Source of the DNA: Opitutia bacterium
Lineage (GTDB): Bacteria > Verrucomicrobiota > Verrucomicrobiia > Opitutales > Seribacteraceae
Reading direction: 5' to 3'
DNA length: 34,838 nt
Assembly: GCA_018675995.1 (NCBI GenBank)
Contig: JABGWZ010000223.1
Location: forward strand, 1-34,838
Shown: positions 1 through 31,529 of the stretch, in pieces
Numbering within the stretch: the first letter of the stretch is position 1
Layout of the letters: each line of letters opens with the position of its first letter
The notes under the pieces: generated by a model
What the model was told of the DNA's origin: nothing
Databases searched by the model: none
What the model saw: only the letters and a program-made list of their open reading frames with translations
Program-made: the position numbers and the translations under genes

Positions 1-2209
1 ACTTTTCGTTGGCGGTGGCATCCAGGCACCATTCCCAGACATTGCCATGCATGTCATACAGACCAAATGCATTGGGGAGTTTTTGTTTTACTGGATGAAC
101 TTCACCTGAAGCATTCTGTATAAACCAACCATATTTACTTAGGTGTTTCTGTTGTAGTACTTCATCTTGAGTGAAATCTTCTGTTTTGCTGAAACAAAAT
201 GGCCCGGTGGAATCTGCGCGGCATGCCCGTTCCCACTCCGCTTCTGTGGGTAGCCTCCAAGAATACCCTGGGGGTGTATCTTCTGATTCATTCAGCTTTT
301 CACAAAAACGCTGGGCATCAAACCAATTACAAATCATTGGCAATGATGAATTTCTATCGTTAGGATTATTTTTTTCAGGTGGAATGATCGCCGCAAATTG
401 AGCCTGGGTAATCTCAGTTTCACCTAACCAAAACGGGTGGGTAATTTGAACGGCTTGTTGTTCTTCGTTTGAAAAACGCCCCATTTCTGATGGGTTGACT
501 TTACCACTTGTAAAGATACCTGAGGCCAATTTAGCATGGCCATCCCACAGTGTATATTCCCCTTCGTTGGAAGTGGATAGAATGGTCTGACTATTTCCTG
601 CGAAAGAAGTGGAGAGCAGTCCTTTCTCAGGGTGTGGGGTGAAACTAAGGAGCTCCTGGGATTGCATACTTTCGGCAAGGAACGACAATCGTTTCCAATA
701 CCATGAGCGTTGATCGGAAGGTAATTGCCCAAGGATGGAAAGGGCTATGTCCGGTTTTTGCATATGGAGAGCTTCTTGAACATCTTTTAAGCCTTCAAGG
801 TATTTGATTCTCCTGAGTAAATGCTGGTTGCAATTTAGTTGCCTACAATTGTTTAGGTTGAGTGTGAAATCTCCAAAAAATGGATGTACTCCAAACAAAT
901 TTTGCTTGGTAATAGAGTTGAGCCTGAAACTAATTTGCCCCAAAGACTGAGACAGCAATAATTGCTCGGTTGTTTCTGTTTCGAGTAATTCCTGCTCGGT
1001 TGGTTCGAAAATGATATGCCTAATTCTATTCAATGGTATAGTGAAGGAACCTCTTTTTGTACTTGCGAAGAAACTCTGTTCTTTTCCAGTAATTGAAGAA
1101 ACGGGGGTGGAGTCACCATTGTTGAAAACTAAATAGTTAGATCTTTTGGTGGCATTATTTTCTTTTTCTTCGGATGGAAAAAATGTTCCATCCCACCCCG
1201 AAATATTTACTTCCTTTAGTCGAATGTAAGAGTTCCCGCCCTGATTGATAAAAAGAATTCCGTTTTGGTCGGGCTGAAAGTCTTGCGTGGAATCTTTCCA
1301 TCGGGCGATCATCTTATTATCAATAAAGATTAAAAATTCTTTTTTTTGACGATGGGCGAGGATACGAAAAGTGGCTTTTTTATTTTCCATCATATCGTTC
1401 ACCATGGTCGACCCTAAAGTCTCTCTTATTATTCTTCCTTTTTTTCTTTTGTTTACCTGAAGGTTTAGTCGATTATTTGAAAAAGATAAATGATAGCCGA
1501 TATTTCCATAACTGGACCCATCTGAATCCGAAAAAATTCGTAGGGCTAAATAAAATGATCTTTCCCATTCGGCTTTAAATTCAATCTCAAGGGCCTCTTT
1601 GGTAGAAAGCTTTGTTCCCACACTTCCCGAGAAAACTGAAACAAGGTCACCGTCTTGATAGGTCCAAGATTTACTGTTACTTTTTTTCCAGTTTTCTAAA
1701 CCAAAAGATGAATCATAAAGTGTGAGATGTGTGGATGGGAGAAACTCGATTTTTCGAACTGCAAAAAGTGGGATTTTAAGTGAGTTCGAGAACCCTGTTT
1801 CAATAAAAAAATGATTATCCGTTAATTTCTTAAACCTGCATCTTAATTTATCCCCATTTCTCAAGTACAGCCTAAGGGATTTTAATTCTGGTCGAATTTT
1901 ACTTTTAGAAAGACGATTAAAGGAAATATTAGAGACGGATTTAAATTTAAAGTTTATCGGGTCAGAGACAGCTTTATTTTCCCAATGCAAATTTTGATTT
2001 TTATCAAGTTTGATTAAACGACCCGTTAATTCAGAGCCGTCGAATAAACGAATTTTTTCCAACCCTCCATATTGCTCATTGGCCAGACTGCTTTGGTTTG
2101 TATCCTCTTTGCTGCTATTGGATGTAACTGGTCCTACTTGTTCGGACCAAAGATTATCCTTTAAATGAAAAAGGATAAAAATGGTAAGCATACTATGGTA
2201 AAATTTCAT
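1..2209 (-). CDS. Exported multidomain protein: N-terminal beta-repeats, LamG/DUF1080-like domain, C-terminal FGE-sulfatase (SUMF1-like) domain; truncated by the window edge
   Basis: Manual reverse-strand translation is open from ATG at 2209-2207 to position 1 (about 736 codons, no stop). N-terminus MKFYHSMLTIFILFHLKDNLWSEQ is signal-like. FGE motifs: FWLGETEITQAQF, YSWRLPTEAEWERACRA, NAFGLYDMHGNVWEWCLD. Overlaps the upstream stop by 4 nt (ATGA). Absent from the ORF track because no stop lies inside the window. Confidence 0.9.
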   Translation of the reverse strand, partial: MKFYHSMLTIFILFHLKDNLWSEQVGPVTSNSSKEDTNQSSLANEQYGGLEKIRLFDGSELTGRLIKLDKNQNLHWENKAVSDPINFKFKSVSNISFNRLSKSKIRPELKSLRLYLRNGDKLRCRFKKLTDNHFFIETGFSNSLKIPLFAVRKIEFLPSTHLTLYDSSFGLENWKKSNSKSWTYQDGDLVSVFSGSVGTKLSTKEALEIEFKAEWERSFYLALRIFSDSDGSSYGNIGYHLSFSNNRLNLQVNKRKKGRIIRETLGSTMVNDMMENKKATFRILAHRQKKEFLIFIDNKMIARWKDSTQDFQPDQNGILFINQGGNSYIRLKEVNISGWDGTFFPSEEKENNATKRSNYLVFNNGDSTPVSSITGKEQSFFASTKRGSFTIPLNRIRHIIFEPTEQELLETETTEQLLLSQSLGQISFRLNSITKQNLFGVHPFFGDFTLNLNNCRQLNCNQHLLRRIKYLEGLKDVQEALHMQKPDIALSILGQLPSDQRSWYWKRLSFLAESMQSQELLSFTPHPEKGLLSTSFAGNSQTILSTSNEGEYTLWDGHAKLASGIFTSGKVNPSEMGRFSNEEQQAVQITHPFWLGETEITQAQFAAIIPPEKNNPNDRNSSLPMICNWFDAQRFCEKLNESEDTPPGYSWRLPTEAEWERACRADSTGPFCFSKTEDFTQDEVLQQKHLSKYGWFIQNASGEVHPVKQKLPNAFGLYDMHGNVWEWCLDATANEK

Positions 2210-3201
2210 CTTTCGTAAATTGGTAAATAACGATAGTTTAAGGCTAACGAAAGCAGAGCAGCTGAGGTGGCGAATGTTTGACCGTAATTCCCGTTCCATG
2301 AACCGTTTTCTGTTTGGGTGGACTGAAGGCGTTTGAAGTTTTGGGAATTCCAGGAGTTCCACAAAGAAGGGCTCGCCCTAAACATTGCTTGTGAGGTGTA
2401 ATATAGGCTGTAGTATTTATGGCCCTGATCACCGAACTGTGAATTTTCCTTAAGGAACTCGACAGAATTTCGGTAAGCATCCGTATTGGTATCCTTGGCC
2501 AGGGATAAAATGAGTGAGCCAATAGCTGATCGGGGCAGGTTGGCTCCGCTTGCAGCCGTGTATCCAAAGCCACCGTTTGAATCCTGACAGGAGAGAAGGA
2601 AGGCCTTTCCTTTCTCAATGGCCTCTTCGGGTACTTTTATGCCTGCGTTACGAGCCGCAAATAAAGCTACCAGCTGAGCACCCGAAATAGTACTGTCTGC
2701 ATCTTGACTATCAGGGCTGTATCTCCAGCCTCCTTTAGGGTTGGATTTTTGAGAGGAGACGATCAACTTGGATGCTTTTTCGAGAGCGGGGCCAAGCCTG
2801 AGATCATTTGTAAGCCCATACGCTTCAGCCAGTGCAAGAGTGGCAAACCCATGATTGTACATTGAGCTGCCTATATACCCAGTTTCCTGATTCTGCTGTT
2901 TGAGAAGAAAATTCATGGCTCTTTTTACATGCAATCGGTACGGACCGAACTCTGGGTCGTCGCCACGGGCTAGAAATGCAAGGATCGCCATTCCGACCAC
3001 TCCTGGTTGGGAACCATAGGAATTGTCCGTCCAGCATCCTGTCTCTTCCTGGTTTTCGGCTAGAAACTCAAGGCCTTTACGGTATGTTTCGTCAATCTCC
3101 TGAACCAATGAATCATTTGATTGTTCGAAAAGATCCTGTCCGCCAAGTGAGGAAAAAAGCGAATAATATAAAATAAGCGTAAGTAAAAGTTTTCTCTTCA
3201 T
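2206..3201 (-). CDS. Secreted prenyltransferase/squalene-oxidase repeat protein (terpenoid-cyclase alpha/alpha-toroid fold)
   Basis: 331 aa ORF; signal peptide MKRKLLLTLILYYSLFSSLGGQ; QW-like repeats (AENQEETGCW, GGWRYSPDSQDADSTISGAQLVAL, SCQDSNGGFGY, STQTENGSW); 4-nt overlaps with both neighbours. Confidence 0.88.
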   Translation of the reverse strand: MKRKLLLTLILYYSLFSSLGGQDLFEQSNDSLVQEIDETYRKGLEFLAENQEETGCWTDNSYGSQPGVVGMAILAFLARGDDPEFGPYRLHVKRAMNFLLKQQNQETGYIGSSMYNHGFATLALAEAYGLTNDLRLGPALEKASKLIVSSQKSNPKGGWRYSPDSQDADSTISGAQLVALFAARNAGIKVPEEAIEKGKAFLLSCQDSNGGFGYTAASGANLPRSAIGSLILSLAKDTNTDAYRNSVEFLKENSQFGDQGHKYYSLYYTSQAMFRASPSLWNSWNSQNFKRLQSTQTENGSWNGNYGQTFATSAALLSLALNYRYLPIYER

Positions 3202-6200
3202 TCCTCTATATTTTTAAAATAATTTTCCATAATTTGTTTGAACTCAGGGGGTGGGGATTGTGACATTCCACCGCTTTTGCGTGATTTTCGGGTTCCTGAC
3301 GGTAAATTCAGGACTTTACCTGTATTTTCCTCAAGTTCGCGGTTGGATGTTCCCCCTTGGTTTGAACCCCCTCCTGATTTCCCAGGCGTCATGGCTGGCG
3401 CTTTTCCTTCACCTCCTTTTCCGAGTTGTTGCATTAGAAATTGCATAGCTGTCATGCTGAGTCCCTGAGTATTCGATTGTGGGGTGCCAGTCGTCTCCAA
3501 AAGTAGATTGATTAGGTCGGTTACAATAACCTTGGATTCATCTTGGGCTTTTAGTGTTACTTCTCCTGCTTCGCCTTTTTTTAAACCGGTAGCCGATTCG
3601 GACATTGCGGTATGAGCATCGTCAAATAGCGGATTGAGACTTTCTTCGGCTAGTTCGATTTGAACATCGGTCAAATCGAGCATGAGCTCTTGCTGTTGGT
3701 CGTTAAGGGTGCTTGTCCAGTTTTCACGGTTCGCTTGAAAGTTGCCACTATTTACAATTCTAGTCTTCTTGATTATATCCCCTTGACCATCGCGGATTTT
3801 TAAAAGAGCGAGGACTTGTTCTATGATGTCTTTTCCCATCTCCTTACCCTGGCCCTGACCTTGTCCATGACCAGGTGGAGAGATTTGTGAATCTAGCATG
3901 TCTGCCCAAACTTTAAATTTATTTGCCCATAATTCGAGCGAGTCCATAGCCTCAAAGGCAACATTACGTTCAATTTTGCGCGAGACCACCAGTAATCCAC
4001 TTACGACCTTTTCATTCGACATCAGTTTGCTTACTTCTCCATAGACACCTCTGCCCGTTCTTTCATGAAAACGACTGATCTCCTTCTGGATTTCTCCAGC
4101 CTCCAGATGGGTGTCAAATTGCATCATTTCCATCCTGTCTTTTTCTGTCAAAATCCTCGGCGTTAGCTTTTCAATATTTGCTCCAATAGATGAAGGAAGT
4201 ATTTTGAGTATTCTCTGGGTTAATTTGTTTTCGGTCTGCTCTATCTTTCGAAGTCGTTGGGCAAAATTAAGAGCTTCGAGCCTGTCGAGTTGTTCCGAAC
4301 TGTCAGCCAGTATTTCCCGAAGTTCGCTAATAGCTTCGCGCTCGAGTTGTTCAGCTTCGGAGAGTGACTCCGAGGCCGAAGAGGGAGAAGATGCTTTTGC
4401 CTCGTTCATCTTTGAACTGGCGAGATTCATTTTACTGGAGGCGACATCTTTCATCCTTTCCAAAGTTTCTGTAAAATCTTTAATAGCTTTCTGATTAAAA
4501 ATCGGATTTCTTGCAGCCTCTTCAAGGACTTTCATTCCTTCATCGGCATTATTTCTGAGGTTGCGTGAATTTGCTTTTTGCATGTCGGCCAATTTTGAAA
4601 GTTTTTGTTCCGTCTTCGGGTCGATGGATTCTTCATTCTCATCCACCATTTGTTCGATTTCGATTGTTTCCATTAGGAGGCTTTCCTGTTCACGTGCAAT
4701 TTCGGAAGTACGAGAAATAATTGCCTCCATTCTTGCCCGAATAAGTTGGGCATGCTTTTCGGGACCTACGACGAAAAACCTTACTGTTCGTGAAGAACTC
4801 AATTCCCGGTCAGGCATCCGATCGAGGGCTTGGGCACTAAATTCTGCGATGTCTCCGTCTTGGAGTGAAAAGAGTCTTGGATCGAAGGGGAAATCAAAGT
4901 TGGTTGTCGTAAGGTTACTTTCATTTTCGTTTTGAATATAAAGTGTGCTATCGAAAATTAGGTCGTTCCCGCGGATGCCTGTCATCTTCAGCCGGCTTTC
5001 GGCGACCCCGAAGTCATCCTTTGCTATAATCTCAAGGGTTTTGGTTTCGAGCAGCAGGATAGAAGATTCAGGGGGCAACTTGCTGATCTCAACGGTTGGA
5101 GGAGTATCTGCATTTGCCACTAACTCAATAAAGTGATTTTGTTCGGGTTTAAGACCAAACTGATCAACGAAACCAATTTCGACTGATTGATCTTTTTTGA
5201 CATCGTTTAATAAAATACGGAACGATTTCTTATCTTTTTCCGAATCGATTGGATCGGTGTTGGAGGAAGCAGTGACATTCGAGAGTCCACGATCCGTTTG
5301 ACCTTTGATAATCAAATCGGAACCAATAGGGAAAGAGACTGATCTTGTAAATGCGTCGGTTTTATAATCAGGAAGAGATAAATACTGCGGGTAGGAAACG
5401 GTTGCCTGGGAAAGTACTATGCTTGGGCGGGAAAGAGGAACCAAAGTTATTTCGCCTCTGTAGTCTCCGGCTTTGAGTTTAAATTTTTTGGTATTTTGCT
5501 GGCCCGGTATGATGAATTCATAAGAGTTCTCCCGCCTACCGGCATTGAGAATAAGATCATCGGGACCACTGAGTTGAATCTCATCGGGTCTTTTTTCTGA
5601 ATCATTGGCTAAAGTAAGCGGAAAGACTTTTGTTTCTCCTTTTGCTGTATAGAGAGTAGAGGGAAAATCGGAAAACCGAGTAAGGGTTTTACGTTGAAGG
5701 TCTGACCAGGGTGATGCCCATCGGAAAGATGTGTTTTGGGCAAGTCCGGGGTAGGTGTAAAAGCAGGCTAGTGAGGCGAATAGACAAAGTATTGCCGCAA
5801 CGCCAGCCAGCCTACTTGGTAGTCGGTCAAATGTATCTGAAAGTGAGAGTTTAGAAATCTCTTTTTCGACCCGTTGGAGAGCGGCTTTGTAAAGGGATTC
5901 TGAATAGTGCGGAGAATCTATATTTCTTTTTTCCGCCAATTCAATAATACCTAAGAAACGATCACCTGGTCCGCCGAACTTAGTTCTTACTTGTTTGGCT
6001 AGCCATTTGGAAGAGGAGGTTCTCAAAAAGGCTTTTCTGCGAATCATCCAACCAAAGAAAACCGCGCAAAGCCAGCCAGAACAACTTAAAAGTAATCGAA
6101 CGCCAATGGGGGTATCCCATAACCGGTCTGAAATAAAAAGAACCAACCAAGATAGGCAGAGAGAAACCAGTAAAAGAGATCCGAATCGAATTGAAAAGAT

Positions 6201-6311
6201 TCTACGGGAGAGGTTTGTCAGATATGCAAGTGATTCAATTAAAGAAGAGGGCAGGGAGTCATCTCTCGTTGATTGAGGTGATTCTTTGTTTTTTTGCTTC
6301 AATTCCTTCAT
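3198..6311 (-). CDS. DUF4175-like large membrane protein with N-terminal TM segments and long coiled-coil region
   Basis: 1037 aa ORF; hydrophobic segments near the N-terminus (FGSLLLVSLCLSWLVLFI, LLLSCSGWLCAVFFGWMI, AGVAAILCLFASLACFY), long Glu/Lys/Arg-rich helical region, Gly/Gln-rich low-complexity C-terminal part; sits in a MoxR/VWA operon where this family typically occurs. Confidence 0.75.
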   Translation of the reverse strand: MKELKQKNKESPQSTRDDSLPSSLIESLAYLTNLSRRIFSIRFGSLLLVSLCLSWLVLFISDRLWDTPIGVRLLLSCSGWLCAVFFGWMIRRKAFLRTSSSKWLAKQVRTKFGGPGDRFLGIIELAEKRNIDSPHYSESLYKAALQRVEKEISKLSLSDTFDRLPSRLAGVAAILCLFASLACFYTYPGLAQNTSFRWASPWSDLQRKTLTRFSDFPSTLYTAKGETKVFPLTLANDSEKRPDEIQLSGPDDLILNAGRRENSYEFIIPGQQNTKKFKLKAGDYRGEITLVPLSRPSIVLSQATVSYPQYLSLPDYKTDAFTRSVSFPIGSDLIIKGQTDRGLSNVTASSNTDPIDSEKDKKSFRILLNDVKKDQSVEIGFVDQFGLKPEQNHFIELVANADTPPTVEISKLPPESSILLLETKTLEIIAKDDFGVAESRLKMTGIRGNDLIFDSTLYIQNENESNLTTTNFDFPFDPRLFSLQDGDIAEFSAQALDRMPDRELSSSRTVRFFVVGPEKHAQLIRARMEAIISRTSEIAREQESLLMETIEIEQMVDENEESIDPKTEQKLSKLADMQKANSRNLRNNADEGMKVLEEAARNPIFNQKAIKDFTETLERMKDVASSKMNLASSKMNEAKASSPSSASESLSEAEQLEREAISELREILADSSEQLDRLEALNFAQRLRKIEQTENKLTQRILKILPSSIGANIEKLTPRILTEKDRMEMMQFDTHLEAGEIQKEISRFHERTGRGVYGEVSKLMSNEKVVSGLLVVSRKIERNVAFEAMDSLELWANKFKVWADMLDSQISPPGHGQGQGQGKEMGKDIIEQVLALLKIRDGQGDIIKKTRIVNSGNFQANRENWTSTLNDQQQELMLDLTDVQIELAEESLNPLFDDAHTAMSESATGLKKGEAGEVTLKAQDESKVIVTDLINLLLETTGTPQSNTQGLSMTAMQFLMQQLGKGGEGKAPAMTPGKSGGGSNQGGTSNRELEENTGKVLNLPSGTRKSRKSGGMSQSPPPEFKQIMENYFKNIEE

Positions 6312-6315
6312 CTTA

Positions 6316-8499
6316 TTAAATCATTCCTACTAGCTTGCGTCCGGTCCAGTAAATTACGAGTAATCCAAAGAGAAAAAGCCCCCATGCGGTATCCGTGCGC
6401 AGACGATGGATTTGAATCACGTCTTGTGGGTCCGGAAGAAAGAAAAGTGCTTGGGTTACCTCTTCATACTCTTGATAGTTTACCGATTTCCCCCCGGTTA
6501 ATCTGGCTAACTGAAGTAAGTCGCGGGATACTACAGGTTGTCCTAGTTTCTCTTTCGTTTGCCTTTCAACTTTAAGGGTCATTTCCAATTCTCTTTCCGC
6601 AGGCAAAGTTTTGACCTTCATGCGAAGGTCACCTTGTTCACGAGCCTTGAACGAGCCGAGGTATACGCCCGGTCCTTCTTCCTCAGCCGTGAAGCGAAGG
6701 CTTTCCCTTTGTCCGTTCGGGTGAATAATCAGACCATCCACCTCGCCATCCTCCATTGGAAAGCCGGCTTTATCCAAAACGATACAACGGACAAAAACAT
6801 TTTCCCCGGACCTAGGTCTCTCTGGATCAGGGATCAAGCGAATACCCTCTTTTTCTGCCAAATATCTCCCATGAGCCATCCAACGTACAACTTGGCTCCA
6901 GAAACGGTAGTGGTATTTGTCTTCAACTCCTCGTCTCCATCGCCATGCACCGTCACTCCCAAGAAAGAGGGTTTTTCCGGCTCCGGCGAAGCGGATGGCC
7001 AAAGTGGGCATTCGTCCCCAGTCATTACGAAAATTGGAATGAACGGCTAAGACCTCGGAGCCGGGTCTACTTTTACTAACTATGGCAGACCAGTGAAACC
7101 CGGGAAGTCTCTCCCAGAATTGCCGGTCTGGTTCTCCTGCTCCCCGGAGGTTGGTTAGCCAATGATTTTTACCGCGTGCCGTAAGCTCAAAGTAGGAAGG
7201 GTTTGATGTTCCGAGACCTGTGGGTTTTTCAGGGTCATAAATGACGGGTAAAAGATCGGATATTGGAGAATCGGTGAAGGTCAATTGCCTTCCTCGTCGG
7301 CCAGGGAGGAAAACCAACCCGGAAGCTTGCAGACGAACTAGCTCGTCTAGGTTTTGACATTGTTCCTCGCTAAGTTCGTTTTCACCCAGTCCTACATCTC
7401 CCAGAAAAACGACATCGAAGGAGGCTAGTTCATCCTTGCTGGTTGGGAATCCGGGCAGATAGCCCTTTCCTTCTCCTGTGGAAATACCAGGATGGAAAAG
7501 AACGCATTTCATGTCAATCCCTGGATCCCTGTCTAGAGCGTTTCGTAAAAAACGATATTCCCAACGTGGGAAAGAATCTACTATAAGAGCTTTGATTATC
7601 TTATTTTCAACCCGAGTGGATATTATCTTTTGGTTATTTCCCGGTAAGCTTTCACCTTGAACCTCTTGCACGGAGACTTTTAGTTCGTAGTTTCCTTCGG
7701 CTGGAGGCATCCATGCAATGCTCCCGGCGGTGTCTTCAGAAGCGGGAATCAGTAAGGGTTTTTGAGTTACCAGTTCGTCGTTTACAAAAAGCCTGAGGCT
7801 AGACTCCTTCGGGTTTTCGAATGTGTTACTGACTCGATAATTAATAGTGATTTTTTCATCTTGCAGAGCAAAGGAGGGGGCAAAGGCATCATCAAGTGAA
7901 AGATCGGGTAGTGGTTTTGGGGCACCGATTTGTATGCTGTATACCGGAATCGAATCCGCCCGGCATTTTCCCGCCAATGAAAGAACGGAGGGTCCGGTAT
8001 TTGAGTCTCCATCGGAAAGGAAAAGAATCGCCTTGATATTATTTCCCCCTTCCAAGGATTCTTCAAGTGCGAGGGCGAGATCTGTTGCAGCAGTACCTTG
8101 TTCAGATGAAAATGGTTTTAGGGTGACAGTCGAATTCTGTTCAAGTTTATTCTTCCATTCTGAATCAATGGCATTGCGAGCCCATTCAATTCGCGATTTG
8201 ATGGAACCGTTTGAGTCTTTTGTGTCGAGGGTATTCATACTGCCTGATACATCGAGCAGGCAGAGAATTTCAGGAGGGTCTTGTTTCTCCTGTTTATTCA
8301 CTTTTTCAGGGTTGAAGAGGGTAATTAGGGTCAAGGTAACGATCGAGAAGCGAAAGATTTCAAGAGCAAGAATACTTTTCTTTTTCCCAGAACGGTTCCA
8401 AGTACGGGAGGAAAGAAATATACTTAGAGATAGTACAAATATAACCAGTAAAAGGTCGAACCAACCCCAAGTAAGCCGCCAGTTAAAAAATTCAAGCAT
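6316..8499 (-). CDS. VWA-domain membrane protein with glutamine-amidotransferase-like region
   Basis: 727 aa ORF; N-terminal TM segments; VWA MIDAS motif CLLDVSGSMNTLDT; TM near C-terminus (WGLFLFGLLVIYWTGRKL). Confidence 0.85.
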   Translation of the reverse strand: MLEFFNWRLTWGWFDLLLVIFVLSLSIFLSSRTWNRSGKKKSILALEIFRFSIVTLTLITLFNPEKVNKQEKQDPPEILCLLDVSGSMNTLDTKDSNGSIKSRIEWARNAIDSEWKNKLEQNSTVTLKPFSSEQGTAATDLALALEESLEGGNNIKAILFLSDGDSNTGPSVLSLAGKCRADSIPVYSIQIGAPKPLPDLSLDDAFAPSFALQDEKITINYRVSNTFENPKESSLRLFVNDELVTQKPLLIPASEDTAGSIAWMPPAEGNYELKVSVQEVQGESLPGNNQKIISTRVENKIIKALIVDSFPRWEYRFLRNALDRDPGIDMKCVLFHPGISTGEGKGYLPGFPTSKDELASFDVVFLGDVGLGENELSEEQCQNLDELVRLQASGLVFLPGRRGRQLTFTDSPISDLLPVIYDPEKPTGLGTSNPSYFELTARGKNHWLTNLRGAGEPDRQFWERLPGFHWSAIVSKSRPGSEVLAVHSNFRNDWGRMPTLAIRFAGAGKTLFLGSDGAWRWRRGVEDKYHYRFWSQVVRWMAHGRYLAEKEGIRLIPDPERPRSGENVFVRCIVLDKAGFPMEDGEVDGLIIHPNGQRESLRFTAEEEGPGVYLGSFKAREQGDLRMKVKTLPAERELEMTLKVERQTKEKLGQPVVSRDLLQLARLTGGKSVNYQEYEEVTQALFFLPDPQDVIQIHRLRTDTAWGLFLFGLLVIYWTGRKLVGMI

Positions 8500-10456
8500 T
8501 GATTGAAGAGGCCTTTTTTTTAGGGACCGTTGCCGGTTGACCTAAAAATGCCTCACCCAAGAGCAGGAACAGGCAGAGAGTAAGAAAGAGGGACCAGACT
8601 TCCGACCGGTCAATTGAGCCCGATGAAGACTCATCTTCTAGTATGCGTGAGGAAATATCCGGGAGTTTCCCAAGGATTTGTTCTACTTTTAGGAATAAGG
8701 TATCATTTTCGCTCTTAGGACGGTTTATCGCAGTAAGCCGTCCATTAATTTTGTAAATACCGGCATGAAGATAGGGAACATTATCTTTTGTATCACCAAT
8801 GGGTTCGAATAGCGTGGTTTCTTTGGACTCCTTTTCTCCGCAAAACCAAGACTGGACGAAGGAGTTGGCTGATGATGACTCCTCAATCAGTCGTTGGATA
8901 GCAGGGACGATGACATAGCCATTGGACATGCTTGACCAACTATCTATGGGAAGGGTGGAAAAGGCATAGATAACACCTTGACCGAGGGTCAGGCTGGAGA
9001 TGAAGGGCTTACCATCGGAGTAATAGGCGAGAGTCTCACCTTGTTTTGGAGTTCGGCGTCTTTTGATTTCAAGGCGGTCAAGGGGGAGACGGTTTCCGTC
9101 TGAAGAATTTGCAAGGATTCCAGAATCTTCCCTCCAATTGTTGACTAGAAAAAATTCATCTTTTTGCTTTTCTTCGAGAGGGTCCCAGGAAAATAATTTA
9201 GAAATATTCGAACTTTTTGTTTCGCTTGGAAAGAGAACAAGGCGTCCACCCTTGACAACAAATTCCTCGAGGACTTTCTCAACATCCGAATTGATTTCCC
9301 CTTGATGGACGAGGATTTTTCGGGAAAGTACATCCTTCTCTCCGAAACCACTCAAAGGAAGGGAATCTGCAAGGTCACCTTGTTGGGATTGAGAAGCTGA
9401 ACGAAGAATTAGACTGGTTCTTGGATTGGAAGCCCGCACTCCAACTTGCGGGGGTTCGGTAGAGCCATAGGTCAGGTAGCAGATATTGTCGTATTGACAA
9501 AAGTCATCTGGGCAGGTGATTGAAATCCATCCTTCATCCGGTTCATTCTTAAGGTCAAATACAGGGCGCCAAAGTACGCTTTGTGATTCCAATTTAACTT
9601 CAAGTATATCCGATTTACCATTCGTTTGAGTAGATAATCGAACCCGCTCTTTTCCTTGTCCTTTTTTCCGCAAGTTTAAGACCGGTTCAACCTTGTTGGG
9701 CATTCGATTAATTTGATCTACTGACAAACTAAGGTTGTAGGGTGGTGGGTCCGCCATGGTAAAGAAGCTCAGTTTCCAAAAATCTTTTTTTTCGGAAAGT
9801 GTTCGGTTTATTTTTTCCATTACATTTGCATTTCGTTCCAGTTCCCAGTTGCTGCTTTGCATGTCTGAGGCAACGAGTATCTCAGCTGTTCCAACTCCTG
9901 TTTCCTCTAACCATTCCAAAGTCTTCGAGAGGGTGCCGGGTAGGTCGGCTGCAGTATCGGTCGGCCCAAAAAATCGCTGCAGGGCTTCGTCTTTAATGGA
10001 GTCTGCACGATCGATAATAAAAGGTGCTTCCAAAGCGGAGTCGAGAACCACAAGTCGGCTTTCCGTCCATGGTCTTGCAAATGATTGAAAAGCTTCCAGT
10101 GCTTTCTGTCTTTTGGTCTGGGAATCCTTTTCCGTAGTTGTTTCCATACTCGCGGATCTGTCGAGAACAAGGACAAGTACTTCCGGGCTTCCATTGGAAA
10201 GGGAGAAAAGGGAGTCACCTCCCGTCATGGGTCGAGCGATCATCAAAGCAAGTGCGGCCAAGGCCAGTACTCTTAAGAGAAGGGTGAGCCACCTTTTCAG
10301 TTTCGATAGACGTGAAGAACTCTTTCGGGCTTGGAAAAGGAAGCGGGTGGCTGCCCAAGGTACGGTACGGTGCCTGAGTAGATTCAGTAGATGAATGATG
10401 AAAGGGGCTAGGGCAAATAGGAGCCCAAGCAGGGCAATTGGTTGAAGGAAAGTCAT
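8492..10456 (-). CDS. BatA-domain / VWA membrane protein
   Basis: 654 aa ORF; typical BatA N-terminus FLQPIALLGLLFALAPFIIHLLNLLRHRTVPWAATRFL; MIDAS-like LVLDRSASMETT; C-terminal TM. Confidence 0.88.
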   Translation of the reverse strand: MTFLQPIALLGLLFALAPFIIHLLNLLRHRTVPWAATRFLFQARKSSSRLSKLKRWLTLLLRVLALAALALMIARPMTGGDSLFSLSNGSPEVLVLVLDRSASMETTTEKDSQTKRQKALEAFQSFARPWTESRLVVLDSALEAPFIIDRADSIKDEALQRFFGPTDTAADLPGTLSKTLEWLEETGVGTAEILVASDMQSSNWELERNANVMEKINRTLSEKKDFWKLSFFTMADPPPYNLSLSVDQINRMPNKVEPVLNLRKKGQGKERVRLSTQTNGKSDILEVKLESQSVLWRPVFDLKNEPDEGWISITCPDDFCQYDNICYLTYGSTEPPQVGVRASNPRTSLILRSASQSQQGDLADSLPLSGFGEKDVLSRKILVHQGEINSDVEKVLEEFVVKGGRLVLFPSETKSSNISKLFSWDPLEEKQKDEFFLVNNWREDSGILANSSDGNRLPLDRLEIKRRRTPKQGETLAYYSDGKPFISSLTLGQGVIYAFSTLPIDSWSSMSNGYVIVPAIQRLIEESSSANSFVQSWFCGEKESKETTLFEPIGDTKDNVPYLHAGIYKINGRLTAINRPKSENDTLFLKVEQILGKLPDISSRILEDESSSGSIDRSEVWSLFLTLCLFLLLGEAFLGQPATVPKKKASSINA

Positions 10457-11361
10457 GCTACTTTGCCACCAATGCGTCCGGCAGAGAAATTATCAATTAC
10501 ATTAACCACTGGGCTGTCCGTGCGAACTTGGTGATAGCTAGACTGAGATTCCAGGCAACCTGTTTTAATTTGATCAATATGGGCATTTAAGCGGGCGAGA
10601 TATTCTGCCCGAATGACAGTCGGTTCAGTAATGAGGGAACCTTCTCCCTCCATGTCCACAAATCGGGTTGGTCGGTCAAAGGTAAAATTGAGTTCCTGAG
10701 GGTCGAAAATATGAAAGAGCACGACCTCATGTTTGCGGTCTCTAAGGTGGAGAACTCCATCCAAGATATCTTCTGGATCATCAAGCATATCGGAAACTAC
10801 GAAGATCGTGGCACGCATCCGTACGGTCTCGGCAATTTCATGAAGCGATGCAGCTAAGCGAGTTTCGCCTTTTGGTTTGAGGGGGCCAATAAGTTCCAGG
10901 ATTTCCTGAATTTGAGAAGGGTTTCTTTTGGCAGGTAAAACTTGGGTTTTACGGTCTCGGATAGAGTGAAGCCCCACGGCATCTCCCTGGCCAACATAAA
11001 GGTATGCGAGTGTGCTTAGGAGTTTTTTTGAAAATTCAAATTTGCTGATTGGGTCGCCGAAATCCATTGAACCACTGCAGTCGAGAGCAAAATGAGCTCT
11101 TAAATTCGTTTCGGCTTCGTACTCCTTCAGGTAATAGCGGTCTGTCCTCGCAAACACTCGCCAGTCCATCCGTTTTGGGTCTTCTCCCTCTGTGTACTCT
11201 CGATACTCTGCAAATTCTACGCTGGATCCTTTATGGGGACTTCGATGGTGACCAGATATACTGCCTTCCATGGGGAAGGGGGTAAGAAGGGGTTCTCCGG
11301 AAATTCGGTTAAGAGAATCTTGATCGATATAATGAGAATAGCCCTTTCTGCGTCTTGCCAT
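10453..11361 (-). CDS. DUF58 domain-containing protein
   Basis: 302 aa ORF; hallmarks G...VEFAEYREYTEGEDPKRMDWRVFARTDRYYLKEYEAETNLRAHFALDCSGSM. Confidence 0.93.
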   Translation of the reverse strand: MARRRKGYSHYIDQDSLNRISGEPLLTPFPMEGSISGHHRSPHKGSSVEFAEYREYTEGEDPKRMDWRVFARTDRYYLKEYEAETNLRAHFALDCSGSMDFGDPISKFEFSKKLLSTLAYLYVGQGDAVGLHSIRDRKTQVLPAKRNPSQIQEILELIGPLKPKGETRLAASLHEIAETVRMRATIFVVSDMLDDPEDILDGVLHLRDRKHEVVLFHIFDPQELNFTFDRPTRFVDMEGEGSLITEPTVIRAEYLARLNAHIDQIKTGCLESQSSYHQVRTDSPVVNVIDNFSAGRIGGKVA

Positions 11362-11364
11362 TCC

Positions 11365-12402
11365 TTATCTTTTTTCTTTCCTTGCGTCTTCGATCAATCG
11401 CGTAACAACTTCAGTACTGTCCATATCTTCGGAACGGGCATGGAAATTAGTCAGAATCCGATGAGAAAGAACGGGTTCGGCAACTTTTTCTACATCTTCC
11501 ATGGATGTCATGTAGTTGCCTTCGAGAACGGCCCGTGCCTTTGCTCCCTTTACGAGATACTGAATGGCTCTTGGTCCGGCACCCCATTGAACAAGTTTCT
11601 TCAACCAGGCAGGAGATTCCTCGGTGTTGGGGCGAGTCCTTCTAACCAAATCGACTGCGAGTTCGTGAACATGATCGGGTACGGGTACGCGTTCAACAAG
11701 TTGTTGGAATTCCTTGAGTTTCTTACCCGAAATGATCTTCTTCAGCTTGGGCAGGGATCCAATAGTGGTGTTCTTTGCGATTGCAATTTCTTCATTTCGG
11801 GACGGGTAATCCATTCGAATAAGAAACATAAAGCGGTCCAATTGGGCTTCTGGAAGTGGGTATGTACCTTCTTGTTCTATTGGATTTTGGGTGGCGAGAA
11901 CAAAGAAGGGTTCTTGAAGTTGATGATTAGTCCCAGCAACGGTCACTCTCTTTTCCTGCATTGCCTCCAATAAAGCTGACTGAGTCTTGGGGGGCGTTCT
12001 ATTGATCTCGTCAGCGAGGATTACATTGGCAAAAATTGGACCCTTTATAAATGTAAATTCCCTTCCTTCTCCATCTTTTTTATTCTGCAGAATCTCCGTG
12101 CCAGTAACATCAGAGGGCATAAGGTCGGGAGTAAATTGAATTCGGCCAAAAGATAATGAAGTTACCTGGGCAATGGAATTGACTAGAAGGGTCTTGGCTA
12201 AACCAGGCACTCCCATAAGAAGTGAATGTCCTTTGGAAAGCATGCAAAGAAAGATCCTTTCAATAGCATCTTCTTGCCCGATAATGACTTTACCAAGTTC
12301 GTTTTTGATTGCAGTGAAAGTATCTTTTAGGTCGCTGATTGATTGAACATCATTTTCAGAAAGTACCTCTGTTTTTTTATTGGGTAGAGTTTTGCTTACC
12401 AT
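11365..12402 (-). CDS. MoxR-family AAA+ ATPase
   Basis: 345 aa ORF; Walker A GVPGLAKT, Walker B VILADEINRTPPKTQSALLEAMQE, FVLATQNPIEQEGTYPLPEAQLDRFMF. Confidence 0.96.
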   Translation of the reverse strand: MVSKTLPNKKTEVLSENDVQSISDLKDTFTAIKNELGKVIIGQEDAIERIFLCMLSKGHSLLMGVPGLAKTLLVNSIAQVTSLSFGRIQFTPDLMPSDVTGTEILQNKKDGEGREFTFIKGPIFANVILADEINRTPPKTQSALLEAMQEKRVTVAGTNHQLQEPFFVLATQNPIEQEGTYPLPEAQLDRFMFLIRMDYPSRNEEIAIAKNTTIGSLPKLKKIISGKKLKEFQQLVERVPVPDHVHELAVDLVRRTRPNTEESPAWLKKLVQWGAGPRAIQYLVKGAKARAVLEGNYMTSMEDVEKVAEPVLSHRILTNFHARSEDMDSTEVVTRLIEDARKEKR

Positions 12403-13672: not shown

Positions 13673-15391
13673 TTAAGTACTTTTCTTAAGTTGTTGCAAC
13701 TTAAGGTTCACCGCTTCGAGTTTTTTGCTCAATTTTTTATTTTGCAGGGAGAAATGTCCGATTAGGAGAAGAATCCCAAACCCAATTAGGGCAATTCTGC
13801 CAAATTGATATTCACCCCAGGTTTTGTTCCACGCCACATAAAAAGCAGCGGTTCCCATAATGGAAAGGGAAATAAGTAGAGAGCTATTCCATAAAAACCT
13901 TCTGATTCCAGTGGGCCTTTCTCTTCCTAATACCTTTTTGTTGTTGATGAGAAGAAAAAAGCTCAAATATGCAACAGGTATTAATGTGAATCCTAGAATT
14001 GATGTGGGTACTGCTAGCCAAAAAGCTGCATCGCTCCAAACAAATGGTCCAAGTACACCTATACCTGCAAGGTATGCACCACAAAGGAAAACAGGACCTT
14101 TGTGTGGTTTTCCTAAAATTTCACAAATAGCGTGTCCATTAATTGTCATTAAAATAATAATCGTAGAAAGGGCCATCCCAACGACCCCAATTCCAAAAAT
14201 ATAATGAGAGAAGGTTTTATTTGCCAGTAGAGCTTCCAGGGACGACGCTAAATTAAATGCATCTCGTTTAACAAGCATGGCTGCTAGTTTTTTGTCTGAT
14301 TCTGGAATGCTGAGTGCCATTTCATCCTTTTGCATAGGGGCAAGTGCCTGATAATTTTCCTTTCCTGCTTCGAGTTCCAATCTGGCTGTAATGAAATTGT
14401 TGTATCCTTTAGCTAAATTCGGGTGTAGAACGCGGTTTTCATAATCTTGGTATGCAGATTCAGGTTTTCCATTAAACTGGGAACCTGCTGCAATAACCAC
14501 ACAGGAAGTGGCAATAACATAGGGGATAAGAAGGGCAGTCCATAAGTCGAACTTAGCTAATCCACGGTGCTCTCTTCCCCATTTTCTGTTCAAGAGAACA
14601 AAAGGCATAAAGAAGGTCATGTTGATCCCCACAGCGGTAGCAGCAGCAGCAATCATAACATCTCTTTGCATGCTAACAATTTTAGTTTCCCAAAAAGAAC
14701 GGAATTCCCCTGTTCCTTCGAGAAAGGGTAGATAAACATTATCAGGAACAGATAAAAGAGATAAGTTTGGAATGAAACCGGATAGTATTTCATTCCATGG
14801 TAATTGACCACTTGATCCCATTTTGATGACCACACCAAAAAAAGAAATAACAACTAACCCGACCATGATTTTTAGTATCCAGTCAAACACCTTAACTCCT
14901 CGATTTCCCCGATCGTATGCCCAAATTACAATTGAAGCTAAAATCAATAACACGGCACATATTCCTACTTTTCCACCTGTATTATTAAGCGATGGGATTA
15001 GGTTTTGTGTAACGGCAGCAGTTCCGAGGGTAAACTGAGGTAGGCACCATACAATATTTGCCATTATGGTAGCTACTGCCCATCCCCACCCAAGAACAGG
15101 ATTTATTTCTGTATTTATCGAAACAAAGGGACTTTGACCTGTAGTTAGTGTTACATGACTGATCGCACTTAGCATTATGATGCCCAGTACAATTGCGATA
15201 GGCTGTAACCAAAGCAGAGAATATCCAGCTAGTACTCCCAGAAATAAACTGGAAGCAAGGGATCCACCGCCCAGCGTGATTGCACTTTGGAGCCATCCTG
15301 GGCCCGAAAGTTTAGTGTAGGCTGCTAGGCACGAGTAAAGCCCTTTGGCTTCAGCTTCTCTCAAGTAAGTTTTTTCTTTTTCTATGGACAT
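13673..15391 (-). CDS. NRAMP-family-like metal ion transporter (divergent)
   Basis: 572 aa polytopic protein; N-terminal pattern SGPGWLQSAITLGGGSLASSLFLG...PIAIVLGIIMLSAISHVTLTTGQSPF consistent with divergent NRAMP relatives. Confidence 0.75.
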   Translation of the reverse strand: MSIEKEKTYLREAEAKGLYSCLAAYTKLSGPGWLQSAITLGGGSLASSLFLGVLAGYSLLWLQPIAIVLGIIMLSAISHVTLTTGQSPFVSINTEINPVLGWGWAVATIMANIVWCLPQFTLGTAAVTQNLIPSLNNTGGKVGICAVLLILASIVIWAYDRGNRGVKVFDWILKIMVGLVVISFFGVVIKMGSSGQLPWNEILSGFIPNLSLLSVPDNVYLPFLEGTGEFRSFWETKIVSMQRDVMIAAAATAVGINMTFFMPFVLLNRKWGREHRGLAKFDLWTALLIPYVIATSCVVIAAGSQFNGKPESAYQDYENRVLHPNLAKGYNNFITARLELEAGKENYQALAPMQKDEMALSIPESDKKLAAMLVKRDAFNLASSLEALLANKTFSHYIFGIGVVGMALSTIIILMTINGHAICEILGKPHKGPVFLCGAYLAGIGVLGPFVWSDAAFWLAVPTSILGFTLIPVAYLSFFLLINNKKVLGRERPTGIRRFLWNSSLLISLSIMGTAAFYVAWNKTWGEYQFGRIALIGFGILLLIGHFSLQNKKLSKKLEAVNLKLQQLKKST

Positions 15392-15466: not shown

Positions 15467-15922
15467 TTACTTAACTGTCATCGTTCCCCTCATCATCGCG
15501 AAGTGACCTGGGAAAGTACAGACATACTCATAAGCACCACTTTCTTTAGGTGCCGTAAAGGAAAGCACTTCTTCCTCGCCTGGACCTAATAATTTGGTAC
15601 TCGCGATAACATCACCTTTGAGAGCGTCAGGAAGTGGATTTACTGCATTTGCACCGGCACCCAGGGCTTTTTGGCCAAATGAGATGGCTGTGATTCCTTT
15701 TTTTAATAAAACTAAATTATGTCCCATGGCAATCTTGGGTAGTTTACCGGCATTTTTGAAAGTGATTATAACACTTTTACCCGCCTTAACCTCAAAATTT
15801 TTAACATCGAATTGCATGGTATCATTACCGGAAATCGTAATTTTGTGGTCTGCCTTCTTTTCGGCATATAAAAATGATGCGGCGCTAATAATAGAGAGAA
15901 GGAGAACTAAGGATTTTTTCAT
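15467..15922 (-). CDS. Azurin-like blue copper protein
   Basis: 151 aa with signal peptide; Cu-ligand motifs MGHNLVLL and CTFPGHFAMM (Cys-x4-His-x3-Met). Confidence 0.92.
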   Translation of the reverse strand: MKKSLVLLLSIISAASFLYAEKKADHKITISGNDTMQFDVKNFEVKAGKSVIITFKNAGKLPKIAMGHNLVLLKKGITAISFGQKALGAGANAVNPLPDALKGDVIASTKLLGPGEEEVLSFTAPKESGAYEYVCTFPGHFAMMRGTMTVK

Positions 15923-15981: not shown

Positions 15982-17529
15982 TTAAACATTACCCGTAGGC
16001 ATGTAACGATAATACACTTCAAGCATTAGGATAGCCATAGTTGTTCTGTAAATATCAGTATCTCCATGAAAATGGTTACCATGGGGCCAATGTCCATCTG
16101 GTGCCTGGTTGGAGCAAACGGTTTGTTGAAAGTCTTTATTCCATGCTTTCCAGAATTTAGATCCACCTGATACACCTGTGGCCTGAAAACAGGCTTGTGC
16201 ATTGTAGTACCAGCCATAGACATCGATTTTACTCCACTCCTTTTTAATGGCTTCATTTTGAACGATCCATTCTAAACCTCTTGTAGCTTCTTCAGATTTT
16301 GCATTTTTCCAAATTTGGAGGGAGAGAACGCCGGTGCCGGTTAAACTTGCCTTGCCTGTTTTACCGCGCTGATAAGCAAACTTTCCAACTTTGTCTTGGC
16401 ACTCCTTGGTATACTTTATTGCTTTATCCAAAGCCTCATCTATCCCATCAATTGAAATGCCCGTGTAAATTGCCGCTTTCAAAGCTTGTATGTTCCATCC
16501 AGTAACCGATAAATCAGTGTGAGCAGCAACGCCTTTGCCATATGAATAAGCCCATCCGCCATTTTCATTTTGTCCTTTAATAATGTGGATCGTTGCACGC
16601 CGAGCATACTCCTCCAACTTTTTGATTTTAGTCATGGTGTAAGCCTCACATAGAGCATACGCTCGAATTGGGTGGGAATAAGAACCGCGCTGATCAATTT
16701 TTGGTTCGGGTGTGGTGGAGGTAATAAATTTAATCGCTTTCTGAACAGTTGGGCCAAAGTCAGGTGAGTCCTGTAATTCACAATGCCCAAGATAACACAA
16801 TAGTGCCATTCCGGTCATTGCATTTTTGTCTGTAGATTTTGGGTTGCCCTGATCGTCTTTGTCTTTGCCACCCCAAGACCCTTCAGAGTCTTGGACTGTT
16901 TGAAGCCATTTTAATCCTTTTACAATGGCTGCTTCGGTCATTGTTTTTCCACCACCCGATTTTAAACGGGCAATTCTTTTTTTAGGATCGCATCGCTGTT
17001 GCATTGTTTTGGGAAGAGTCAGCCCAATTCCAGCCATTGCTTTTTTCATTTTATCGTTATTCATACCTGCATCCGACATAGTCGGTGCTGCAGCTTCAAC
17101 AACAGGTGCTAAATCCTTAACATCCAATTCATTAAATTCTGGCATTGAGATATCTGAAATAGCAGTAGTTACAAAGGTTTTTTGGGTTTTTGGCTGGGCT
17201 TTTTTCTGTCTCTGCATGAGTTTAACCACTTTTTGCTTTTCCTGTTTTTGTGCTGAAGGAGCGGTACCTCCGTCCGAAAAGTCAGAGTTCCCTTCCTCGG
17301 CCAATGCAAGCCCCATCATCATGCCCCAGATGGAGCCCATGATTAAAGTCAGGAATAGGAGTGAAACTAATAGGCTATTTAGCAAGCGATATTCTCGGAG
17401 GTACTTACTGAATGCACCCTCTACAGGAGGAGCAACGGTAAACGCAGGGGTGTCCTCCTGATGTTCTTCAGGAGTTAATTCCTGCTCCAGATGTTGGTTT
17501 TCTTCGGGGTATGCTTCTTCTTGATCCAT
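15982..17529 (-). CDS. Membrane-anchored prenyltransferase/squalene-oxidase repeat protein
   Basis: 515 aa; acidic N-terminal tail, single TM (LLNSLLVSLLFLTLIMGSIWGMMMGLAL), linker, then toroid repeats (KGLKWLQTVQDSEGSWGG, KGQNENGGWAYSYG, SLTGTGVLSLQIW) and a C-terminus YYRYMP matching NYRYLP of the 2206-3201 protein. Confidence 0.88.
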   Translation of the reverse strand: MDQEEAYPEENQHLEQELTPEEHQEDTPAFTVAPPVEGAFSKYLREYRLLNSLLVSLLFLTLIMGSIWGMMMGLALAEEGNSDFSDGGTAPSAQKQEKQKVVKLMQRQKKAQPKTQKTFVTTAISDISMPEFNELDVKDLAPVVEAAAPTMSDAGMNNDKMKKAMAGIGLTLPKTMQQRCDPKKRIARLKSGGGKTMTEAAIVKGLKWLQTVQDSEGSWGGKDKDDQGNPKSTDKNAMTGMALLCYLGHCELQDSPDFGPTVQKAIKFITSTTPEPKIDQRGSYSHPIRAYALCEAYTMTKIKKLEEYARRATIHIIKGQNENGGWAYSYGKGVAAHTDLSVTGWNIQALKAAIYTGISIDGIDEALDKAIKYTKECQDKVGKFAYQRGKTGKASLTGTGVLSLQIWKNAKSEEATRGLEWIVQNEAIKKEWSKIDVYGWYYNAQACFQATGVSGGSKFWKAWNKDFQQTVCSNQAPDGHWPHGNHFHGDTDIYRTTMAILMLEVYYRYMPTGNV

Positions 17530-18405: not shown

Positions 18406-19554
18406 ATGAAATTATTTTCTATGCCTGTTTTCTCGTGTTTTCTCATTTTTAATTTTGTCCCGTATTTACTCTCTGGAGATGAGTCAGTTTCAATTAAGCT
18501 GGAAATTGAACGTGCTCTTGGGAGGGGTGTTAAGTGGATAAACTCTGAGCAGAATAGCAGTTCCGGGCAATGGGGAGAAGCGGATTATCCTGCTCTAACT
18601 GCACTTGCTTTGCGCTCAACCATGGGGCATCCGGATTCAGCAGTGGTTAAAAAGTATGCCGATCAACAGGCAAAGGGTTTTTCCTTTATATTATCAAAGG
18701 TACAATCCGACGGTGGAATTTATGGCAAAGGTTTAGCTTCATACAATACTGCAATATGTATGATGGCTATGATCCAATCCAAGGATCCCAAATATAATGA
18801 TATTATCAAATCTGCTCGCAGGTTTTTAATCAATCAGCAGTCAGATTTTGATCGAAAGGGAGAGAGAGATAATGTGTTTGATGGGGGTGTGGGATACGGT
18901 TCCCGTTGGGCTCATTCTGATCTTTCTAATACCCATCTTGCAATGGAAGCACTTTATTACGCCAAAAAGTCATTTAAGCCAGAAGAAGGCGATGAGTTGG
19001 GGTTGGATTGGGATGCAGCGATTTCATTCGTAAGTAAATGTCAAAACTTGTCTGCTACGAATAAGGAAAAATGGGTCAGTCAAGATGATGAAGACAAGGG
19101 AGGTTTTGTTTACTTTCCAGGAAGCAGTATGGCTGGAGAGAAAAAAAGAAAAGATGGATCTGTTGCACTACGTTCTTATGGCAGTATGAGTTATGCAGGG
19201 TTACTAAGTTTTATTTATGCCGAGATGGAGCAGGGGGACCCTCGTCTAAAAGCAGTTCGTACCTGGTTGAATAAAAATTACAGCATTTCAGAAAATCCCG
19301 GGATGGGGCAGCAGGGACTCTATTATTACTACCATACCATGTCTAAAGCCCTTTCCCTTAGCGGTATTGAAAAACTTGTCGATAAGAATGGGAAGAGTAG
19401 GGATTGGAGGAAGGAGTTGGCCTTTGAGATGCTCAACAATCAAGACCCAAAAGGATTTTGGATTAATGAGAACGGAAGGTGGTGGGAACGTGACCCAGTG
19501 TTGGTAACTTCCTATGCATTGCTTACCCTTGAGCGAATATATTACAGTTTATAA
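18406..19554 (+). CDS. Secreted prenyltransferase/squalene-oxidase repeat protein (third copy)
   Basis: 382 aa; signal peptide; repeats GVKWINSEQNSSSGQWGEADYPALTALAL, FILSKVQSDGGIYG...YNTAICMMAM, FEMLNNQDPKGFW...VTSYALLTLERIY. Confidence 0.85.
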   Translation: MKLFSMPVFSCFLIFNFVPYLLSGDESVSIKLEIERALGRGVKWINSEQNSSSGQWGEADYPALTALALRSTMGHPDSAVVKKYADQQAKGFSFILSKVQSDGGIYGKGLASYNTAICMMAMIQSKDPKYNDIIKSARRFLINQQSDFDRKGERDNVFDGGVGYGSRWAHSDLSNTHLAMEALYYAKKSFKPEEGDELGLDWDAAISFVSKCQNLSATNKEKWVSQDDEDKGGFVYFPGSSMAGEKKRKDGSVALRSYGSMSYAGLLSFIYAEMEQGDPRLKAVRTWLNKNYSISENPGMGQQGLYYYYHTMSKALSLSGIEKLVDKNGKSRDWRKELAFEMLNNQDPKGFWINENGRWWERDPVLVTSYALLTLERIYYSL

Positions 19555-26175: not shown

Positions 26176-27451
26176 TACTTGTATTTATATTTGGTTAATA
26201 ATCTTAATACCTATTTCTTCGTTCTCCAATGAAAGGAGAATTGGAAAGTTGAATACCTTAAGTTGGGAAAATTATTTTAATCTTGGGTCTAACACGAGTC
26301 CTTACTCCGCTGGTACATATTATCCGGATTTATCTTGTGTGGGTGCAGTCGTAACGGATGATTTGTATGGCACCGGTACTCTAGTTGCTCCTAATGTTGT
26401 GGTGACTGCCGCTCATGTGTTAAAAAACTATTGGTCCAGCCCAACACCGGTTCCAAGCGAATGGCAGTTCATTTTACATACCGATTATGAAAAAGCATCA
26501 AGCACGGTTACTTACGATGTAGAATCTATTATTCTTCACCCTGGGTGGAATAAGCGGCTCAGTCAAAACAGTGGAACTGGGGATGGGGATCGGTTAGGGG
26601 TTGATATAGCTTTATTGCTTCTAAAAACCTCTGTTGTGGGGGTCTTCCCGGCAAAATTGCCTACCGGGGCTTTGGAAACTGTTGGTACTCGAGCTGTGCT
26701 TGCGGGGTACGGAAGAATGGTAGATGGAAGTTCCGGGGTTGTGAGTTCCAGTAATAGTATTCGAATCGGGGGAGAGAATACCTTGGATCGTGTAGTTGCT
26801 GATGTCGATGCCCCAGGTGTTGACTCATCGAGTAAGGGCGGGTTATTAGCAGTAGATTTTGATTCTCCTCAAAATAATCAAAATACTCTTTCAGATGTTT
26901 CGCCTACTATTGATTATCTGGGATCAGGTACAAGTTCAGCTTCCCCATTATCATTAGAGGCAAGTTCTGCGATTGGAGATAGTGGCGGACCGGCTTTTAT
27001 ATATGATAACCTAGGATGGCGTTCGGTGGGGGTAGTTTCATACGGAACATCTGATTCCACATATGGAGATATTACTGTATACACTCGGGTGGCAAATCAT
27101 TTATCTTGGATTAAATCTTATTTACCAAGCTGGGCACAGGCTAGGCAGATTTCATATTCTGGTTGGCTAGAACTTGATTGGTTTGGTTTTTTTTATGCTC
27201 TCACAAGCAATTGGAATTATCATGCTGTCCATGGCTGGTTTTATTCAATCGATTCCGATGGCGAGTCCTTATGGGGTTGGCAAAACGACCATGTAGGGTG
27301 GTGGTGGAGTGGGCTTGGTGTTTACCCATTTCTGTATTCCACTGGTCTTGGTAAATGGATTTATGTGAATATTGCGAAATCTAATAAAGATGTTCTTTAT
27401 TATTACGATTATGACTTGGCTGATTGGGTATCATTAAGTCTCTCAAATTGA
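26168..27451 (+). CDS. Trypsin-like (S1 family) serine protease with Trp/Tyr-rich C-terminal domain
   Basis: In-frame GTG at 26168 gives the signal peptide (M)NNTCIYIWLIILIPISSFS; triad motifs VVTAAHVL, VDIALLLL, AIGDSGGPAFI. Track start at 26054 is inside the previous gene and would add non-signal sequence. Confidence 0.9.
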   Translation: MNNTCIYIWLIILIPISSFSNERRIGKLNTLSWENYFNLGSNTSPYSAGTYYPDLSCVGAVVTDDLYGTGTLVAPNVVVTAAHVLKNYWSSPTPVPSEWQFILHTDYEKASSTVTYDVESIILHPGWNKRLSQNSGTGDGDRLGVDIALLLLKTSVVGVFPAKLPTGALETVGTRAVLAGYGRMVDGSSGVVSSSNSIRIGGENTLDRVVADVDAPGVDSSSKGGLLAVDFDSPQNNQNTLSDVSPTIDYLGSGTSSASPLSLEASSAIGDSGGPAFIYDNLGWRSVGVVSYGTSDSTYGDITVYTRVANHLSWIKSYLPSWAQARQISYSGWLELDWFGFFYALTSNWNYHAVHGWFYSIDSDGESLWGWQNDHVGWWWSGLGVYPFLYSTGLGKWIYVNIAKSNKDVLYYYDYDLADWVSLSLSN

Positions 27452-27477
27452 CCCATTTACACGCTAATAAAACTTTC

Positions 27478-28284: not shown

Positions 28285-28306
28285 AGCTTAGATGTAAAGC
28301 TCTTTT
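28283..28306 (+). terminator. Terminator-like hairpin spanning convergent stop codons
   Basis: AGAGCTT (28283-28289) / AAGCTCT (28297-28303) 7-bp stem, 7-nt loop, followed by TTT. Confidence 0.45.
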
Positions 28307-29394: not shown

Positions 29395-29466
29395 ATGAGT
29401 GAGTTCTTTATTCTTTATTGGATCAGCCTTTCTGCAACGATCAAAATTTATTTTAAGGCATATTTA

Positions 29467-30273: not shown

Positions 30274-30357
30274 TTATGATGCGGGGAAAGCAATTTAACA
30301 TACAAATAAAAAATACCTTTCAACTTGCTTCTCACTATAAAACTATAATAAATTACA

Positions 30358-31458: not shown

Positions 31459-31529
31459 CAATGTTATAGGTTTAGTTCCTAAGATTTTAATTTATTAGTT
31501 GAGCTAACATATGACCCAATATTTACTAT

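Follow-up and report, generated by a model that had tools for sequence, protein, structure and literature searches.

A MoxR/VWA gene set that co-occurs with an exported toroid protein and LamG-like proteins in Verrucomicrobiota

The stretch examined here, hereafter the window, is the complete 34,838-nucleotide contig JABGWZ010000223.1 from the 2.6 Mb draft genome of an Opitutia bacterium (Verrucomicrobiota; assembly GCA_018675995.1). It carries a compact run of genes encoding a MoxR-family AAA+ ATPase, a DUF58 protein, a BatA-type protein, a membrane-anchored VWA protein, a DUF4175-like protein, a protein of alpha/alpha-toroid fold (the toroid) and, at the contig edge, an incomplete seventh protein with a LamG-like module (gene 7). 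Across Verrucomicrobiota, these genes are one evolutionary unit, with the VWA, DUF4175-like and toroid orthologues found in exactly the same genomes. We give roughly even odds (a probability of about 0.5) to the reading that they encode a conserved MoxR/VWA machine that relays ATP-driven work done in the cytoplasm to partners in the periplasm.

The phyletic profile was obtained from 241 evenly drawn genomes of the phylum, each with a completeness of 90% or more. At the ortholog level, VWA, DUF4175-like and toroid genes were all present in the same 40 genomes, spanning 12 families and 22 genera, and no genome was discordant, so that the toroid was in no case missing from an otherwise conserved set. 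A hypergeometric value calculated for this overlap takes no account of kinship among the genomes and is not read as a probability. The ortholog thresholds were placed at a visible score gap after the scores had been seen; this gap between orthologues and paralogues is wide, and no VWA genes of intermediate score were observed. The profiles (A1–A3) derive from loci that had been located by their toroid gene and from VWA genes of genomes with split sets, a choice that could bias the result towards co-occurrence. Nine held-out genomes from the order to which the window belongs were all concordant, six carrying and three lacking both toroid and VWA genes. Given that a toroid orthologue occurs in just 7 of the 103 genomes of this order, and that its presence changes between two genera of a single family, the co-occurrence does not merely reflect inheritance throughout the phylum. 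In 26 genomes, distances between VWA proteins correlated with those between toroids (r=0.87, with 0 of 2000 permutations; r=0.89 among nine genomes of the split set), which shows a shared history rather than an interaction, as would be expected for any two vertically inherited genes. Together with the gene order of the paralogous block described below, these observations bear out the preliminary description of the window, which had tied the toroid and DUF4175-like genes to the MoxR/VWA genes.

The six complete genes are packed end to end on the minus strand from 12402 to 2206, with junctions of +3, −4, −8, +4 and −4 nt, in agreement with the tightly packed same-strand operon first proposed from the sequence (Table 1). 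Gene 7 starts with an ATG at 2209, overlaps the toroid stop codon by 4 nt and remains open at the contig edge, its C-terminus being absent. In the genome collection, we considered the best 80 toroid loci among the matches listed, many of them cut by contig ends; all were Verrucomicrobiota by title except one labelled Proteobacteria, and the closest relatives of the window among the matches listed were Opitutia metagenome-assembled genomes. The DUF4175-like gene adjoins the toroid gene in 74 of these 80 loci, and the 23 with the whole six-gene run have identical order, on one strand, with median gaps of −4 to +4 nt.

Table 1. Genes of the MoxR/VWA set in the window
Feature	Position	Strand	Characteristics
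MoxR-family AAA+ ATPase	11365..12402	−	345 amino acids (aa), predicted cytoplasmic; Pfam, Walker motifs
DUF58 protein	10453..11361	−	302 aa, metal ion-dependent adhesion site (MIDAS) DCSGS + D191, no transmembrane helix, predicted cytoplasmic
BatA-type protein	8492..10456	−	654 aa, double N-terminal anchor, MIDAS DRSAS, C-terminal transmembrane helix
Membrane-anchored VWA protein	6316..8499	−	727 aa, MIDAS DVSGS, T139, D163
DUF4175-like protein	3198..6311	−	1037 aa, three transmembrane helices, Ig-like string, helical region
Exported alpha/alpha-toroid (squalene-cyclase/thioester domain-like fold), export predicted	2206..3201	−	331 aa; Pfam, model, invariant motifs
Gene 7 (incomplete at contig edge)	1..2209	−	N-terminal Sm/SH3-like + LamG-like module (about residues 1–560), then FGE-like domain

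Close packing was previously taken to imply a single transcript, but the genes need not form one: Akkermansia and other Verrucomicrobiia carry parts of the set at widely separated sites. Scans for promoters and terminators gave no more matches than shuffled sequences and were therefore uninformative on transcription. In many Verrucomicrobiia, the MoxR-DUF58-BatA-VWA half does not adjoin the toroid gene. Nine of ten genomes with split halves carry the VWA orthologue, which lies just 1.7 kb upstream in one locus (L057), and it stands with MoxR, DUF58 and BatA in six of the nine regions examined from split genomes. Akkermansia, a gut bacterium, is among the 40 set-carrying genomes, with parts up to 2.3 Mb apart; in one of its genomes (G031), the best MoxR gene lies at 3.03 Mb, the toroid and DUF4175-like genes at 2.98 Mb and the BatA-VWA pair at 2.21 Mb. 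The genus assignment relies on a published 16S probe site for Akkermansia; the site occurs in 8 of the 12 genomes tested of the genus in question (g28), three times in most of those that are complete, and is absent from every other genus tested.

A deeply diverged paralogous block retains the MoxR-DUF58-BatA-VWA-DUF4175-toroid order at low similarity in one locus (L104). Most of the block is also held by L107, where BatA was not recognized, and by L109, where no MoxR was seen. Some DUF4175-like proteins of the paralogous blocks are very long, exceeding 1500 aa and in one case reaching about 3680 aa.

The MoxR protein matches the Pfam family AAA_3 (PF07726, 1.5e-63) and, far below that match yet above the cut-off, PF20030; its Walker A motif GVPGLAKT, with the K/T pair, and the DE of Walker B are invariant across all orthologues aligned. 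The DUF58 protein was identified by its Pfam match (3.4e-41) and the BatA-type protein by its N-terminal anchor (PF07584, 1.4e-16; TIGR02226, 3.5e-20), while no Pfam or NCBIfam match to BatB, BatC, BatD or BatE was found among the window genes, BatB scoring just E 0.0048, far under the cut-off. The VWA protein gave no Pfam VWA match, and its assignment rests on a clear MIDAS motif; it is strongly conserved, with 53% mean column identity. The expectation that DUF58, VWA and BatA proteins all bear a MIDAS was confirmed, as DxSxS and the distal D are kept across the orthologues of all three, with one S position being S or T in VWA. A hydropathy script placed two N-terminal and one C-terminal transmembrane helices in BatA, two N-terminal helices and a weaker C-terminal one in the VWA protein, and three helices with a basic cytoplasmic loop in the DUF4175-like protein. 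MoxR and DUF58 are predicted to be cytoplasmic, and BatA and VWA to be inner-membrane proteins held by their anchors. As judged from the basic loops that separate the helices, the VWA domains of the latter two, with their MIDAS, and the large arm of the DUF4175-like protein would lie in the periplasm.

The label of the DUF4175-like protein is weak. The window protein itself does not match the DUF4175 model PF13779, which is matched by 5 of 25 of its orthologues with a best E of 1.1e-4. Its structure model contains Ig-like beta-sandwiches at about residues 215–515 followed by a long helical region, so that the predicted periplasmic arm would be composed of Ig-like and helical parts.

The toroid matches the Pfam squalene-cyclase C-terminal fold (1.1e-11), and its AF2 model is a confident alpha/alpha toroid (pLDDT 91). 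Foldseek retrieved 8paj (E 6e-7), and the top PDB folds were squalene-hopene and class II terpene cyclases at a TM-score of about 0.65, with GH76 mannanases and the complement thioester (C3d) domain among the matches at about 0.6. The DxDD catalytic motif of these cyclases is absent from the toroid consensus, where DADST or DADTT occupies positions 167–171; the window protein is also a single domain and predicted to be exported, and its sequence matches to cyclases and PDB entries are short repeat matches only. Terpene-cyclase activity is thus unsupported. MYNHGFAT, WRY, DADxT, YxxYYxxQ and the C-terminal LPIYE are invariant in toroid orthologues, and distant paralogues still keep H117, D169, Y264, Y267, Y268, Q271 and the C-terminal LPIY. 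The window holds a second, divergent toroid protein at 15982–17529 (−), of 515 aa, which scores 138 bits against the toroid profile; it is directly adjoined by a plastocyanin/azurin-type copper protein (15467–15922, −) and followed by an Nramp-like transporter (13673–15391). A 382 aa protein without Pfam matches (18406–19554, +) gave a weak match to the toroid profile, of 30 bits.

Gene 7 belongs to the system, as judged from sequence comparison, through its N-terminal module and not through its FGE domain. The conserved part comprises the N-terminal ~578 residues, with 'NGD' repeats of Sm/SH3-like type alongside a LamG-like sandwich. These domain names were inferred from sequence pattern, and the sole Pfam hint is that a relative weakly matches Hfq_1. 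This module was matched in 74 of 85 loci and, by profile, in 38 of the 40 set-carrying genomes and 1 of the 201 others (G108, the sole genome with the LamG-like family yet without a VWA orthologue). The proteins, predicted to be exported, share only about 25% identity and are usually encoded by one to three copies per locus (often two or three in tandem, five once). The FGE-sulfatase domain (PF03781) is clear in the window (5.6e-29) and in the homologue of locus L005 (7.2e-35), which is complete and extends past the FGE-like domain into WD40 repeats. The FGE and WD40 parts are limited to 14 and 12 Opitutia loci, respectively, the window's own lineage. Of the two active-site cysteines, at positions judged by the FGE motif, only the second (RCR) is conserved among 13 homologues. 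An FGE protein as the conserved distal partner, as initially envisaged, is rejected because these domains are lineage-specific fusions.

Elsewhere in the window, glycosyltransferase genes (GT1, GT2 and WsaF-like) cluster at 27424–34669, with an ABC-2 transporter permease nearby at 27424–28284; this region is probably a surface polysaccharide locus.

In the machine proposed here, a MoxR hexamer together with DUF58 would act across the membrane to remodel three partners, BatA, VWA and the DUF4175-like protein. On the periplasmic side, the MIDAS sites of the first two would grip the toroid and LamG-like proteins. The gripped proteins might be matured or switched, through metal loading or conformational release, a step modelled on the NorQD and Mxa systems. 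The toroid is more likely to be a permanent component, because it is well conserved (mean identity about 55%) and kept in the paralogous block, and the LamG-like proteins are more likely clients, because of their low identity, their one to five copies and their lineage-specific fusions. Against this scheme, the topology was derived from a hydropathy and positive-inside script, and the membrane is predicted to separate MoxR from the periplasmic VWA domains, so that direct insertion of a VWA finger in the style of NorQD could apply to DUF58 only. A more specific version, which we consider unlikely, is that of a trans-envelope AAA+ machine unlike described MoxR systems, in which the toroid would be the ligand of the periplasmic MIDAS sites and would pass ATP-driven force to variable LamG-like envelope proteins. 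The integrin I-domain MIDAS of CR3 offers a parallel, in that its ligand, complement C3d, is likewise a toroid.

Although its component families are known, the complete system appears to be undescribed in the literature searched, which took in few subscription papers and yielded no description of the whole set; the parts seen of a paper on essential genes of Verrucomicrobium spinosum do not mention these genes. In the mxaRSACKL genes of methylotrophs, MoxR, DUF58 and VWA proteins serve a periplasmic client and are thought to mature the pyrroloquinoline quinone (PQQ) methanol dehydrogenase; they are not known to have a DUF4175-like, toroid or LamG-like partner. Another moxR operon, RL3499-RL3502 of Rhizobium leguminosarum, reportedly affects the cell envelope. 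NorQD sets a precedent for MoxR/VWA action on a client, nitric oxide reductase (PMC13036017); NorQ and NorD, which insert Fe_B into cNOR, likewise pair a MoxR AAA+ ATPase with a MIDAS-bearing VWA protein, although they form a two-protein complex on a membrane enzyme, without BatA, DUF4175 or toroid proteins.

Other readings would assign the set a different role. The toroid could itself be the enzyme served, a MoxR/VWA-activated periplasmic modifier of lipids or isoprenoids with a class II terpene-cyclase fold, the LamG-like proteins acting as accessory binders. The top PDB folds fit this idea, and the polar and aromatic residues that stay invariant even in paralogues are consistent with a functional pocket; the missing DxDD motif, the repeat-only sequence matches to cyclases, the fold matches to mannanases and the thioester domain, and the lack of obvious access to isoprenoid diphosphates for exported proteins make it rather unlikely. 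About equally improbable is a stress or aerotolerance module, that is, a general periplasmic quality-control chaperone with no dedicated clients. The Bat operons of Bacteroides and Leptospira resemble the present set in their MoxR, DUF58 and membrane VWA proteins with a BatA-type anchor, but they have the TPR proteins BatC/E in place of DUF4175-like, toroid and LamG-like genes, three families that co-occur with the set almost invariably. Moreover, Leptospira biflexa deleted for every bat gene showed no oxidative-stress phenotype (PMC3557215), which counts against a role of this type.

We consider it very unlikely that the set serves in conflict or defence as a member of the MoxR-vWA ternary class, even though such systems occur in Verrucomicrobia, some with beta-propellers (PMC7159879), the complete gene 7 homologue has WD40 repeats and MoxR matches PF20030. 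In the ternary systems (eLife 2020), the propeller is fused to the vWA protein, whereas the VWA protein here has none and WD40 repeats occur on gene 7 homologues, in a lineage-specific manner. PADLOC returned nothing convincing, with its models negative save that the ATPase weakly matched DolB (6e-6), and a known anti-phage defence system was rejected on this basis; the largely congruent histories and strong conservation are also unlike fast-evolving defence loci. Least probable of all is an incidental neighbourhood in which the gene order, common to many related genomes by descent, merely reflects shared ancestry, since exact co-occurrence holds where the parts are physically separate and presence varies at the genus level, so that the phyletic profile contradicts incidental linkage.

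MoxR/VWA pairs are widespread, and few have a known client. The DUF4175-like, exported toroid and LamG-like families, previously unconnected, can now be named as candidate partners of one MoxR/VWA set, with which the first two co-occur in 40 of 40 genomes and the LamG-like family in 38 of 40. In Akkermansia, where the parts are physically separate, each of them could be removed singly.

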